This document shows positions 2,260 to 6,194 of a stretch of 20,211 nt of DNA, piece after piece. How positions within the stretch are numbered: the first letter of the stretch is position 1; each line of letters opens with the position of its first letter. The stretch is from a virus. The translations under genes and the position numbers were made by a program. The stretch spans positions 1 through 20,211 of the IMG/VR virus record IMGVR_UViG_3300044225_000034; one strand, given 5' to 3'. The notes below the pieces were generated by a model that did not search any database, was not told the origin of the DNA, and worked only from the letters and a program-made list of their open reading frames with translations.

Positions 2260-2556
2260 GTGGCAGATAAAGGCAAAAGTCCGAGTGATTACGGTTTAAC
2301 TAAGAAGCAGGCTGCTGATCTTATTAAGTTACTAGAGAATAAAGCACCTGAAAATGCTAATTACTTTAGAAAACTGTTTAAAATGAAACTAAACAAAGGA
2401 GGCACAACTATGCCAATGCACGGAAAGAAAAAATCCAAGATGATGAGTCGTGGTGGAGCAGGAATGAAGAAGAAAACAAAGTACATGTCTAAGGGTGGGG
2501 CAGGTATGAAGAAAACTAAATATATGTCTAGGGGTGGTGCAGCAAGACGTAAGTAA
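2260..2556 (+). CDS. basic protein with C-terminal RGGAG repeats, 98 aa
   Basis: The start is GTG 2260, chosen because AAGGAG at 2248-2253 sits six bases upstream and no in-frame ATG precedes the helical N-terminal part. Residues 1-45 look like a small folded domain (LTKKQAADLIKLLENKAPEN). The rest is a tandem array: MSRGGAGMKKKTKY, MSKGGAGMKKTKY and MSRGGAARRK, preceded by a Lys/Met-rich stretch. The array spans 2443-2553 and its copies have diverged at silent positions, so it is maintained. RGG-type tracts often bind RNA or DNA, but Arg/Lys-Gly-Gly alone does not prove that. The stop overlaps the next ATG (TAATG). Confidence 0.65.
   Translation: MADKGKSPSDYGLTKKQAADLIKLLENKAPENANYFRKLFKMKLNKGGTTMPMHGKKKSKMMSRGGAGMKKKTKYMSKGGAGMKKTKYMSRGGAARRK
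2443..2553 (+). repeat. tandem repeat coding for (M-S-R/K-G-G-A-G-M-K-K) units
   Basis: Three in-frame units begin at 2443, 2485 and 2524, each opening with ATG-(AGT/TCT)-(CGT/AAG/AGG)-GGT-GGN-GCA. Synonymous differences between units (for example GGT GGA, GGT GGG, GGT GGT) suggest selection on the protein rather than a recent DNA duplication. Confidence 0.7.
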
Positions 2557-3248
2557 TGTCTTATCTCATCAGCAACGTACCTCATTTTAAATGCTGGGTA
2601 CGTAAAGAGTTCACTTGTAATCATATGAATTATCATGGTGAATTTCTCCACGCTATAGCATTTGCAGTAAACACCATACCTGATAGGTCATTGAGTTTCC
2701 AAGTTGTATTTACAGGATGTGACGAAGACGAAAATGTACATGGTGGTGCAATGTGGGCAAGAATGCCAATACAAGCATTGGTAGCAGACATACCACTAGA
2801 TCAGTGGGCAGAACCTATGGAAGATCATTTGTGTCAACCGTGGGATTGTGAATCAAGGCATCATAGCGTAGTGGTCATGGATAGAGTAAGTTCTAGTCCG
2901 TGGTTATGTAAAATAGATAATAAGTTTCATACAGCTAAATATTTGTTTACAGTTGACTACACAGAAAACGCTATAGCAGATGACCCTGCACAACATAAGC
3001 AATCGCATGTCTTGTATCTGTTAGATGCAGATAAATGGACAGGTAACATAGTCGCATTACCGAACAATAGAGTTAGGGCAACAAGTCCAGCTTTATGGGT
3101 TACTGGAGAGGGTGCTCCTGATTTTGCACCATCGCAGTGGCTACATTCAGCAGAAGCTCATGAGTCCTATCTAGATCCTTTCACAACGTTTAACAATTTA
3201 TACAATGACACAAACAGCAAAAAAAAGAAAAACAAAAAGAAACTATAA
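2556..3248 (+). CDS. conserved marine-phage hypothetical protein, 230 aa
   Basis: A near-neutral, globular-looking protein that stands out among lysine-rich neighbours. It is rich in Trp, His and Cys, with segments such as HGEFLHAIAFAV, VHGGAMWARMPIQALV, HLCQPWDCES and YLFTVDYTENAIADDPAQHK. It reads as a mostly beta-stranded domain of about 210 residues plus a Lys-rich tail. From memory, very similar proteins are common in uncultured marine phages, always without a function. The repeated His, Cys and acidic residues could make a metal or active site, but no motif is diagnostic. ATG 2556 overlaps the previous stop. The last 44 bases, coding for the Lys tail, overlap the next gene. Confidence 0.75.
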   Translation: MSYLISNVPHFKCWVRKEFTCNHMNYHGEFLHAIAFAVNTIPDRSLSFQVVFTGCDEDENVHGGAMWARMPIQALVADIPLDQWAEPMEDHLCQPWDCESRHHSVVVMDRVSSSPWLCKIDNKFHTAKYLFTVDYTENAIADDPAQHKQSHVLYLLDADKWTGNIVALPNNRVRATSPALWVTGEGAPDFAPSQWLHSAEAHESYLDPFTTFNNLYNDTNSKKKKNKKKL

Positions 3249-3485: not shown

Positions 3486-3809
3486 ATGACAGAAAAAGCA
3501 AAAAAAGTAGTAAAGAAAGTAGCAGGAAAATTAGAGAAGGCTAGTAAAGCTCATGCAGGTCAAGCTAAATCTCTAGCGGCTTTAGAGTTGAGAAAAGGTG
3601 GCTCTGCTAAAAAGAAAACTACAAAGAAGAAGAAGTCTAAGAGTACAGTAAACAAAGCAGGTAATTACACTAAACCTGAATTACGTAAACGTATATTCAA
3701 CAGAATTAAAGCAGGGGGTAAAGGTGGTGCTCCGGGTCAATGGTCTGCACGTAAAGCACAGATGATGGCTAAAGCATATAAAGCCGCAGGTGGTGGATAT
3801 AGAAACTAA
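3486..3809 (+). CDS. basic protein with PGQWSARKAQ motif, 107 aa (first half of a DUF5872-like family)
   Basis: An N-terminal Lys/Ala helix and an RKGGSAKKK linker lead to a conserved C-terminal domain at about 58-107. Its landmarks are NYTKPELRKRIFNRIKAGG, KGGAPGQWSARKAQMMAKAY and AAGGGYRN. From memory this block forms the first half of a family found in phages and giant viruses (I believe DUF5872). In those proteins it is followed by a W-x-TKSGKPS...RYLP block, and that second block is here in a different gene, at 4803-5174. The function of the family is unknown. The start lies two bases after the previous stop, and its own stop forms TAATG with the next gene. Confidence 0.65.
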   Translation: MTEKAKKVVKKVAGKLEKASKAHAGQAKSLAALELRKGGSAKKKTTKKKKSKSTVNKAGNYTKPELRKRIFNRIKAGGKGGAPGQWSARKAQMMAKAYKAAGGGYRN

Positions 3810-4108
3810 TGGCTAAGAAGAAAGACCCTAAAGTTGGCACAGGTAAAAAACCCAAAGGGTCGGATAGACGTTTATATACTGACGAAAACCCTAAAGACAC
3901 AGTTAGAATTAAATTTGCTACTGCAAAAGATGCTAGAGAAACAGTCACAAAAGTTAGAAAAGTTAATAAACCTTATGCACGAAAGATACAAATCCTAACA
4001 GTTATGGAGCAACGTGCAAAGGTTATGGGCAAGACAGAAGTTGTCAAAATAGCAAAAGCAGCTAAAGAAAGTTTAAAGAAAGCACATGAACGAAAAAAGA
4101 AAAAATAG
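3809..4108 (+). CDS. conserved basic hypothetical protein, 99 aa
   Basis: A compact, basic protein with recognisable blocks: KVGTGKKPKGSDRRLYTDEN (8-27), DTVRIKFATAKDARETVTKV (30-49) and RKIQILTVMEQRAKVMGKTE. From memory this set recurs in cyanophage and other marine phage genomes as an uncharacterised family, so the gene is likely real and full length. The VRIKFAT strand followed by helices suggests a small alpha/beta fold. A poly-Lys tail ends the protein and overlaps the start of the Cys-rich gene by 23 bases. Coupled to the preceding gene by TAATG. Function unknown. Confidence 0.7.
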   Translation: MAKKKDPKVGTGKKPKGSDRRLYTDENPKDTVRIKFATAKDARETVTKVRKVNKPYARKIQILTVMEQRAKVMGKTEVVKIAKAAKESLKKAHERKKKK

Positions 4109-4199
4109 ATGTGAAACTTGTGAATGCTACGATTGCGATTGTGAAGAGTGCAACTGTGATTGCCACGAAGAAGAGGAGGTACAAGGAGTACCTGTATAA
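4086..4199 (+). CDS. Cys-rich, metallothionein-like microprotein, 37 aa
   Basis: The frame from ATG 4086 to TAA 4197-4199 encodes a 37-residue protein with eight Cys (9, 12, 14, 17, 19, 22, 24, 26) and His27. They alternate strictly as CxxC and CxC, and most intervening residues are Asp or Glu; the tail is EEEEVQGVPV. Such packing is the hallmark of metallothioneins, which bind Zn(II), Cd(II) or Cu(I) in thiolate clusters. The frame overlaps the preceding gene by 23 bases and its stop forms TAATG with the next gene. Without it, a hole of about 90 bases would remain in an otherwise gapless array. The ribosome binding site is weak (AAAGAAAG). The metal-binding role is inference from composition. 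Confidence 0.75.
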   Translation: MNEKRKNRCETCECYDCDCEECNCDCHEEEEVQGVPV

Positions 4200-4381
4200 T
4201 GATTGAGTTTGTGCTTGTGTTTATGATGGGATTAAGAGTAGTAGACCAAACACAAACCTTTGAAGACATAGATAGATGTTTGTACTTCGCAGAGAGATTG
4301 CATAAGCAACCTTCAATACCACAGCAGGAAGGACCTAATCTACAGATAACAGCATATTGTAAGCCTAGAAGGAAAAGATAA
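4199..4381 (+). CDS. small protein with hydrophobic N terminus, 60 aa
   Basis: ATG 4199 is chosen because it overlaps the previous stop (TAATG) and has AAGGAG at 4183-4188, ten bases upstream; upstream in-frame codons only mirror the Cys-rich gene. The protein begins MIEFVLVFMMGLRVVDQTQT, a single hydrophobic segment, then FEDIDRCLYFAERLHKQP and a basic tail with Cys54 (ITAYCKP). From memory this small protein is frequent in marine phages. It may be membrane-anchored or exported, with its two Cys able to pair outside the cytoplasm. It shares its layout with the 80-residue protein at 695-937. Function unknown. Confidence 0.7.
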   Translation: MIEFVLVFMMGLRVVDQTQTFEDIDRCLYFAERLHKQPSIPQQEGPNLQITAYCKPRRKR

Positions 4382-4821
4382 TGTTAGCAGAACTAGCTGC
4401 GGCAAATGCCGCTTTCAGTGTAATAAAAAGTTTCGTGTCTAACGGAAAAGAACTTACAGGATGTGCTAAACATATATCAGATTTTGTATTCTCAAAAGAA
4501 CAACTAGAGAAGAAAGCAAGTAAACAAAAATCTAAAGGTGGTGGTTCTGATTTAGAAGAGTTCATGGCTCTTGAGCAAATAAAAGAAAAAGAAGAAGAAC
4601 TCAAGAAGATGATGATATATATAGGCAGACCCGGACTGTGGCAAGATTGGCAGGCTTTTCAAGCTGAAGCAAGAAAGTCTAGACGTTACCAAGAGAAGAT
4701 GAGAGAGAAACGTCAAGCAGAATTAGTAGAATACTTTGGTTATGGAATAGCTTTTATATTTATATTATTCTTTGCAGGATTACTAGCTTGGATTGTTGGT
4801 AAATGGACAGGGAAACTTTAA
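4381..4821 (+). CDS. C-terminally membrane-anchored coiled-coil protein, 146 aa
   Basis: Residues 1-20 form an Ala-rich amphipathic helix (MLAELAAANAAFSVIKSFVS). Residues 57-115 are highly charged helix with coiled-coil character, including DLEEFMALEQIKEKEEELKK. Residues 121-140 (GIAFIFILFFAGLLAWIVG) form one clear transmembrane segment just before a short basic tail. From memory the DLEEFMALEQI...GLW-x-DW block is a conserved marine-phage protein without assigned function. The likely topology is a cytoplasmic coiled coil with a C-terminal anchor. A link to lysis or membrane remodelling is possible because the holin and lysozyme follow about 400 bases later, but this is inference. TAATG joins it to the previous gene, and its end overlaps the next by 19 bases. 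Confidence 0.7.
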   Translation: MLAELAAANAAFSVIKSFVSNGKELTGCAKHISDFVFSKEQLEKKASKQKSKGGGSDLEEFMALEQIKEKEEELKKMMIYIGRPGLWQDWQAFQAEARKSRRYQEKMREKRQAELVEYFGYGIAFIFILFFAGLLAWIVGKWTGKL

Positions 4822-5174
4822 CACCTTGCATAGGTGTATGCACATTAGAAGATGATGTATGTATAGGATGCGACAGAACAATAGAAGAGATTAAAGAGGC
4901 ATATGAAAACAGTATGGCATTAAAAAAATCACAGAGGTCGTTAGTTGCGTGGGGCAAACAAAAATGGAGAACTAAGTCAGGCAAACCTTCTACACAAGGG
5001 TCAAAAGCTACTGGTGAACGTTATCTACCTGAGAAAGCGATTAAGGCTCTTAGTGCCAGTGAATACGCCGCCTCTACGGCTGCTAAACGAAAAGCAACTA
5101 GAAAAGGTAAACAAGTGGCTAAACAACCCAAAAAGATTGCAAAGAAAACATCAAGATTTCGTAAATACAGCTAA
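4803..5174 (+). CDS. DUF1289-type Cys4 domain fused to a DUF5872-like C-terminal half, 123 aa
   Basis: Residues 8-34 match the DUF1289 pattern: PCIGVCTLEDDVCIGCDRT followed by IEEIKEA, with Cys9, 13, 20 and 23 (C-x3-C-x6-C-x2-C). DUF1289 proteins are small bacterial proteins thought to bind iron-sulphur or zinc. Residues 38-123 are basic and carry WGKQKWRTKSGKPSTQG, ATGERYLPEKAIKAL and KGKQVAKQPKKIAKKTSRF, the second half of the family whose first half is at 3486-3809 (from memory DUF5872). The join falls near an in-frame ATG at 4914, so a second, shorter product is possible, though no good ribosome binding site precedes it. Function unknown; metal binding by the N-terminal part is likely. 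Confidence 0.7.
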   Translation: MDRETLTPCIGVCTLEDDVCIGCDRTIEEIKEAYENSMALKKSQRSLVAWGKQKWRTKSGKPSTQGSKATGERYLPEKAIKALSASEYAASTAAKRKATRKGKQVAKQPKKIAKKTSRFRKYS

Positions 5175-5221: not shown

Positions 5222-5614
5222 ATGATACAAGCACTAATAGGACCACTCGCAAATCTCGCAGGAACGTGGTTTCAAAACAAAGTAGAAAAAACAAAAGCCG
5301 ATGGTCTCGCTAAAATAGCTGAAGCCAAAGCTAGAGCAACCGTTGCAGAGAAGGTAGCTGCAGGTGAAGTAGAGTGGGAAGGTAAGATGGCAGATGCCAC
5401 AGTAGATTCGTGGAAAGACGAATTTGCTTTAGTTGTGCTGTTAACCCCTGCGATTTTAGTTTTCATTCCGGGTATGACAGAATATGTGGAACATGGATTT
5501 AGTATATTGGCAACTTTACCAGAGTGGTATCAGTACCTCTTATATATCGCAATTAGTGCATCGTTTGGGATTAAGGGTGTCGGACAAGCAGCAAAGATGT
5601 TTAAAAAGAAATGA
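5222..5614 (+). CDS. holin (GTA-type 3TM-holin-like), 130 aa
   Basis: The layout is an N-terminal amphipathic helix (MIQALIGPLANLAGTW), a charged Ala-rich helix (19-60), W-K-D-E-F, then two hydrophobic segments at about 68-84 (LVVLLTPAILVFIPG) and 103-121 (YQYLLYIAISASFGIKG), and a Lys tail. This matches the holin family described for gene-transfer-agent release and common in marine phages, where DSWKDE and WYQYLLYIAISASFG-like blocks are conserved. Holins form the inner-membrane lesions that let the endolysin out. The lysozyme follows directly with one small gene between, supporting the call. The spacing to the previous gene (47 bases) is the longest in this block; GGAG precedes the ATG at about 5209-5212. 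Confidence 0.8.
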   Translation: MIQALIGPLANLAGTWFQNKVEKTKADGLAKIAEAKARATVAEKVAAGEVEWEGKMADATVDSWKDEFALVVLLTPAILVFIPGMTEYVEHGFSILATLPEWYQYLLYIAISASFGIKGVGQAAKMFKKK

Positions 5615-5730
5615 CATATAAAGCAAGAATGTATTTGAAATTATCATCATTTATATGTAATATAGGTAATTACTTTTGGAGAAAACACGTAGAGGAAATA
5701 CGTAAACAACAAACATCTAGGTTAATATAA
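5611..5730 (+). CDS. 39-aa protein between holin and lysozyme
   Basis: ATG 5611 overlaps the holin stop as ATGA, and the TAA at 5728-5730 overlaps the lysozyme ATG as TAATG. The frame fills the gap between the two genes exactly, which is strong evidence that it is translated. The product begins MTYKARMYLKLSSFICNIGN and continues YFWRKHVEEIRKQQ. It is basic, with an amphipathic or membrane-hugging stretch at about 7-24 and one Cys. Position suggests a lysis accessory role (antiholin, or an inner-membrane spanin-like piece), but it is shorter than usual spanins and no family is recognised. Confidence 0.65.
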   Translation: MTYKARMYLKLSSFICNIGNYFWRKHVEEIRKQQTSRLI

Positions 5731-6194
5731 TGAATTTAATGACAATACAAGACGAAATAGCTGAAGACGAAGGAATAAAATATGAGTTGTATCTATGTTC
5801 AGAAGGGCATTTGACCGGGGGAATCGGACATTTGATTACTGAATGGGATGCAGAGTATTATGATAAACCTATAGGAACAAAGATTCCAATTGATCAGGTA
5901 GATGATTGGTTTGCAAAAGATATCAAAGTGTCTGTGAAAGACTGCGAAGATCTATTTAGCAACTTTAATGATCTACCTGAAGACATACAACATGTATTAA
6001 TAAATATGTCATTTCAATTAGGGAAGCCTCGTTTATCTAAATTTAAAAAAATGATTGCTGCTGTAGAAAATCTAGATTGGTCAAAGATGGCAGATGAGAT
6101 GCAAGACAGCACTTGGAGGTGGCAGACACCTAACAGAGCACAGAGATTAATAAAACGTGCTGAAGAACAAATGATTAAGGATATACCAATATGA
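5730..6194 (+). CDS. T4-type lysozyme (GH24 endolysin), 154 aa
   Basis: A muramidase that cuts the MurNAc-GlcNAc bond of peptidoglycan. The N terminus aligns with T4 lysozyme: EDEG holds the catalytic Glu14, GHLTGGIGHLI holds Thr29, and the position of T4 Asp20 is Cys23. The spacing Glu-8-Cys-5-Thr fits the known GH24 triad Glu-Asp/Cys-Thr. The C-terminal half (NMSFQLGKPRLSKFKKM, then STWRWQTPNRAQR) matches the family's helical lobe, including the W-x(4)-R-A-x-R motif. Length is close to T4 lysozyme (164). No signal peptide or SAR segment is seen, so release should depend on the holin just upstream. The stop overlaps the next start as ATGA. Confidence 0.92.
   Translation: MNLMTIQDEIAEDEGIKYELYLCSEGHLTGGIGHLITEWDAEYYDKPIGTKIPIDQVDDWFAKDIKVSVKDCEDLFSNFNDLPEDIQHVLINMSFQLGKPRLSKFKKMIAAVENLDWSKMADEMQDSTWRWQTPNRAQRLIKRAEEQMIKDIPI

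Follow-up and report, generated by a model that had tools for sequence, protein, structure and literature searches.

A conserved cysteine-rich microprotein gene near the lysis genes of HMO-2011-type marine phages and its putative two-site metal-binding core

The window analysed here is a virus record in its entirety (20,211 bases), and it carries a short cysteine-rich frame between a small basic protein gene (called 'up' below) and a small gene with a hydrophobic N terminus (called dn), upstream of a holin-like frame and a lysozyme gene. The features of this region are as follows.

3809..4108, plus strand: 'up', basic, 99 aa; not an obligate neighbour, as the microprotein gene can follow other genes
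4086..4199, plus strand: cysteine-rich microprotein gene, 37 aa, ATG start and TAA stop; in place in relatives and under purifying selection
4110..4166, plus strand: conserved core, 19 codons (residues 9-27), C-x-T-C-x-C-Y-x-C-x4-C-x-C-x-C-H; the Cys at residue 19 is variable
4167..4199, plus strand: variable tail and stop, EEEEVQGVPV*, holding AAGGAG, the putative ribosome-binding site of the next gene
4199..4381, plus strand: dn, 60 aa, hydrophobic N terminus and two conserved Cys; the usual partner of the microprotein gene
4381..4821, plus strand: 146-aa gene with a C-terminal membrane-type segment, phrog_32327; follows in most loci
4803..5174, plus strand: DUF1289 (PF06945) joined to phrog_14910; a neighbour outside the core unit
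5222..5614, plus strand: holin-like frame, phrog_2524, with a putative role judged from position and hydrophobic segments; lysis-region context
5730..6194, plus strand: lysozyme (PF00959); lysis-region context

The portal protein of the window is 77.5% identical to that of Roseobacter phage CRP-1 and 77.3% to that of Puniceispirillum phage HMO-2011. The matches of the window to terminase, capsid and lysozyme are in keeping with a tailed phage, its structural and packaging genes are homologous to those of HMO-2011-type phages and lie in identical order, and by these comparisons the window can be assigned to the HMO-2011-type marine phages, a group with isolates on SAR11, SAR116 and Roseobacter hosts (PMC9038755).

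The original prediction described a 37-residue frame with Cys at residues 9, 12, 14, 17, 19, 22, 24 and 26 followed by His27, tied to its neighbours by a 23-nt overlap with the upstream frame (3809-4108) and by a TAATG overlap downstream. The translation of 4086-4199, MNEKRKNRCETCECYDCDCEECNCDCHEEEEVQGVPV, has these residues, and both overlaps are present, the second at 4197-4201 with the next frame starting at 4199. Cysteine accounts for 8/37 residues (22%) and for 8/18 across residues 9-26. A single one of 200 dinucleotide-shuffled windows also held eight Cys in 18 open codons, so that an eight-Cys frame is unlikely but not impossible by composition alone, and composition does not settle whether the frame is a gene.

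Relatives were therefore considered by location, being fetched via the upstream neighbour 'up' or the downstream neighbour dn without using the Cys pattern. A Cys-rich frame was found just upstream of dn in 78/80 dn-seeded loci. In the two loci without it (L211 and L255) just 7 and 46 bases precede dn, and one of the 78 frames is out of register and was read as L256, whose contig starts 75 bases before dn. As these three are broken off before dn, the microprotein gene is in place in all complete dn-seeded loci (77/77), and the frame is conserved at this position in related phages, which answers the check proposed in the original prediction. Pattern-found and neighbour-found sequences were pooled for the selection analysis (127 distinct core DNAs). 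The pN/pS of the core was 0.10 in frame vs 2.86 and 0.98 in the other two frames, a rough figure given that synonymous sites are saturated, and the pairwise difference was 0.504 at codon position 3 vs 0.073 and 0.065 at positions 1 and 2, i.e., about seven-fold higher; the synonymous-site excess for which the original prediction suggested a test is thus found. The seven Cys codons showed TGT/TGC swaps and zero replacement. The His codon varied only synonymously, being partly fixed by the search pattern, and His27 was constant in the dn-seeded set too, which used no Cys pattern. Because the frame is conserved in place, varies at third positions and loses Cys only at residue 19, its sequences identify 4086-4199 as a real protein-coding gene under strong purifying selection. 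A chance open frame, or DNA conserved for an RNA signal or for overlap with its neighbours, for which the short length, the start inside the upstream gene and the single shuffle in 200 could be cited, is scarcely credible and was rejected for the window's family on the selection, dn-locus and frame data: variation has a period of three, pN/pS is 0.10, the Cys are fixed through synonymous swaps, the gene occurs behind three different upstream genes, GGAGG precedes the start where it directly follows the phrog_17747 gene, and beyond its first 23 nt and its last base the frame in the window overlaps neither neighbour.

The fixed unit of the family is C-x2-C-x-C-x2-C-x4-C-x-C-x-C-H, i.e., seven Cys and one His. 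Its spacing was unchanged among 78 distinct cores, the collecting pattern itself fixing the spacing, and the dn-seeded set showed identical core spacing. Residue 19 was Cys in 54/78 distinct cores and was replaced in the other 24 (about 30%) by T, A, D, I, Y, K, P, V and others. The loss of Cys codons or of the frame in close relatives, named by the original prediction as evidence that would speak against it, is therefore seen at the eighth Cys and nowhere among the other seven or the His; 'eight-cysteine' holds for the window's protein, whereas the family-wide conserved set is seven Cys and one His. One homologue (L285) has three extra Cys (MTIETRCCDTCTCYECNPDECNCDCHCECKPAVKGDD) and no Cys at the residue-19 position.

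The main clade also keeps Thr11 and Tyr15 constant. The invariance of these two residues and of His27 there rests chiefly on the dn-seeded set (38 distinct cores, including one out-of-register sequence), as the pattern scans prescribe or forbid certain codons, which limits what they can say on this point. Within the 2.9-million-contig viral collection, replacement of His27 by a codon not starting with C, or of Thr11 by a codon not starting with A, gave only Cys-run artefacts among the matches listed. A first DNA scan for eight Cys had likewise returned many Cys-run artefacts, mostly frames without a start, and these were set aside. Replacement of Tyr15 by a codon not starting with T was found in a diverged relative present in at least four loci (L385, L394, L398 and L401). 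This variant has 28 residues, MSQCEDCKCENCEC[TVQ]ECECECHNEKTDED, and retains eight Cys and the His; it is without Thr11 and Tyr15, the Tyr15 position being Glu, and in L401 it starts at a GTG overlapping the 3′ end of the phrog_17747 gene. Since it keeps the Cys and His and loses the Thr and Tyr, the ligand set of seven Cys and one His outlasts all other residues, and eight such ligands would suffice for two tetrahedral metal sites. Directly after the diverged variant in L401 lies a second small Cys protein, MKKPTKTKNTFKPCAGCKTPTACRKANACLLGKKGIKHKH (1863-1985).

The predicted family proteins are about 28 to 56 residues long, mostly 34-42, and differ from one another in the length and sequence of both the N terminus and the tail. 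The tail variants (VQGVPV, VAEKGND, ELDFVN, HHNDR...) were considered as functional modules and rejected on reading the DNA, because they follow the dn start or ribosome-binding site, or run out of frame through dn. Within the VQGVPV tail, AAGGAG lies a few bases ahead of the dn start, the dn ATG sits inside the last codons of the VAEKGND-type tail, and in the HHNDR-type clade the microprotein frame continues through the first part of dn, out of frame. Judging from these comparisons, the residues outside the 19-residue core are replaceable and the protein is, in essence, its core. A natural out-of-frame overlap reaching tens of bases into the dn start occurs in L308, L320, L325 and the HHNDR-type loci.

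The microprotein gene was seen after 'up', the phrog_17747 gene or a lysozyme gene, and it is usually followed by dn and then by the membrane-type gene corresponding to 4381-4821. The gene travels with dn, which lay within 1.5 kb in 18/18 loci with the microprotein gene vs 1/49 without it (raw counts, relatedness ignored). Where the gene is missing in L193, 'up' directly adjoins dn. Another contig (L286) has an SU10-type portal, unlike that of the window; there the gene starts where a GTA_holin_3TM holin gene ends, the match given by the counterpart of the holin-like frame at 5222..5614, and is shortly followed by a 67-aa frame and then a Cpn10 gene. The three arrangements near lysis genes suggest, from position, late expression. 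Other Cys-containing proteins are encoded in these contigs. The DUF1289 domain at 4803-5174 has four Cys; in L401, phrog_14910 is a gene of its own, preceded by a distinct small protein that bears a CAGC...C...C motif. These phages repeatedly encode small proteins that combine a hydrophobic N terminus with a few conserved Cys, and a single contig may hold two or more (4199-4381 and 695-937 in the window; 2040-2237 in L286). A 230-aa protein of the window (2556-3248) matches phrog_3704, which bears a ferredoxin/auxiliary label (3e-29), and this label looks doubtful because the protein has no Pfam match.

Many uncultured ocean viruses akin to HMO-2011 carry the gene. The strict core occurs in at least 119 viral stretches, and 126 distinct predicted proteins were collected; loci from one contig recur, so locus counts exceed virus counts. 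None of 84,980 cellular genomes contained the strict core pattern, a search by alignment likewise turned up no relative in cells, and the gene appears to be phage-restricted as far as searched. Of the 'up'-seeded loci, 20 carry the gene immediately after 'up'; it is missing from that place in 58, two of which have it elsewhere, and no core was present in the regions read from the isolates HMO-2011, HTVC033P, CRP-1, HTVC104P, HTVC035P, Lederberg and MEP401. The microprotein gene is an accessory gene rather than a core gene throughout HMO-2011-type phages. When phage records were searched by tblastn with the 37-aa protein, nothing matched, low-complexity masking probably hiding the protein, and blastn of the gene gave chance matches only. 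The dn protein matched HMO-2011 at 34% and other records only more weakly, at chance level; its scarcity in phage records is the stronger evidence of absence, since dn is well conserved and the tblastn null is weak.

None of the 26 family members examined (0/26) matched Pfam, NCBIfam or PHROGs at E<=1, and no match was found among PDB sequences at E<=10. The control protein SmtA matched PF02069 (75 bits, 4.5e-21), so short Cys-rich proteins are not simply invisible to profile search. The metallothionein likeness put forward in the original prediction does not extend to membership of that family (PF02069), for which the microproteins gave no match where SmtA scores 75 bits. Its description of a phage-encoded Cys-rich microprotein, with residues of metal-ligand type in CxC/CxxC spacing, is borne out as real and under selection, and the gene is uncatalogued, having no family in Pfam, NCBIfam or PHROGs. 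In functional terms the protein has the low mass and the high Cys content in CxC/CxxC arrays of a metallothionein. The classical definition also asks for few or no aromatic residues, to which bacterial members are exceptions, and here Tyr15 is invariant in the main clade. With regard to an SmtA-like zinc-finger fold around one site, AlphaFold2 run without metal gave no secondary structure and no confident fold (mean pLDDT 58, pTM 0.21), a result that says little about a peptide expected to need metal for folding.

Cys in CxC/CxxC spacing, together with His, bind Zn(II) or Cu(I) by established coordination chemistry, and on this ground the core probably binds one of the two. The best reading is a putative two-site metal-binding microprotein that would be chemically metallothionein-like and lie outside the bacterial metallothionein family. 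More specifically, we favour, with a probability of about 0.6, a late or lysis-region microprotein whose 19-residue core of seven Cys and one His would bind two Zn or a small cluster and play an adaptor or carrier role beside dn. From the ligand count of eight, two Zn(II) could be held in two four-ligand sites or in one small shared-thiolate cluster, Cu(I) being the alternative metal, and the apo-peptide would fold on metal binding. Gene position points to a late, cytoplasmic role near lysis: most likely the protein would be produced in the host cytoplasm late in infection, as a small, soluble microdomain loaded with metal. It would most likely act as a metal-binding adaptor or carrier beside dn and the lysis-region genes rather than as a bulk detoxifier, in that the fixed ligand number, the dispensable Cys and the two constant non-ligand residues of the main clade rank this role somewhat above bulk buffering; the preference is weak because metallothionein families likewise keep their Cys fixed. 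Several results count against this explanation, namely the lack of a match to any metal-binding family or solved chain, the low AlphaFold2 confidence, which is expected for a metal-dependent peptide and gives it no support, and the invariance of Thr11 and Tyr15 in the main clade, which pure ligand conservation leaves unexplained.

A tentative alternative is a functional metallothionein, i.e., a Zn/Cu thiolate-cluster buffer or sink that could supply late metalloproteins, protect against metal set free by the infection or strip metal from host enzymes. Eight Cys in 18 residues, with such CxC/CxxC density and small size, fit cluster-forming thiolate peptides, and the tail and N terminus are free to vary; a loosely evolving sponge would nevertheless hardly keep a Thr and a Tyr invariant in the main clade, PF02069 goes unmatched where the SmtA control matches at 4.5e-21, and no metal-resistance or metal-regulation gene was recognised beside the microprotein gene. 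The His is compatible with this role, since His serves as a ligand in bacterial metallothioneins too (PMC10612145). A cytoplasmic thiol/redox peptide or an iron-sulfur cluster protein, rather than a Zn/Cu binder, is improbable: the protein is Cys-rich and has the DUF1289 and phrog_3704 ('ferredoxin') proteins nearby, but the constant His after the last Cys and the CxC spacing would suit tetrahedral sites better than the usual Fe-S motifs, and the ferredoxin label is without Pfam support.

The gene family is uncatalogued, belongs to a dominant group of marine phages and is pared down nearly to its predicted metal ligands, and its absence from a phage library clustered by remote homology makes it a clean example of the short-gene annotation gap. 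If metal is bound, it would be among the smallest natural metal-thiolate proteins, and phages would handle trace metals directly in metal-poor seawater. More speculatively, a metallothionein-like protein might have evolved in abundant ocean phages, independently of the cellular ones, as a minimal two-site metal-thiolate peptide for late Zn/Cu management in virion assembly or lysis.

No phage or viral metallothionein was found in the open-access literature searched, most subscription journals lying outside its coverage. Like the prokaryotic metallothioneins (PF02069; SmtA/BmtA type), the microprotein is small and Cys-rich, combines CxC with CxxC and has at least one likely His ligand. It differs from the SmtA type in lacking a profile match, in length (28-56 aa vs 56 in SmtA), in having its ligands in one 19-residue block with acidic spacers, and in being phage-borne, with none found in the cellular genomes searched. 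With zinc ribbons and knuckles, taken as a general class, it shares fixed Cys/His ligands in numbers enough for two tetrahedral sites, although it matches no Pfam, NCBIfam or PHROG model and three CxC steps are unusual for zinc fingers. The Neurospora-type fungal copper metallothioneins are about 25 residues long, with seven Cys in CxC/CxxC spacing, Gly/Ser/Asn spacers and no His ligand. The phage microprotein resembles them in its seven Cys and their spacing, a likeness for which no homology is expected, and differs from this eukaryotic type in its Asp/Glu spacers and its His.
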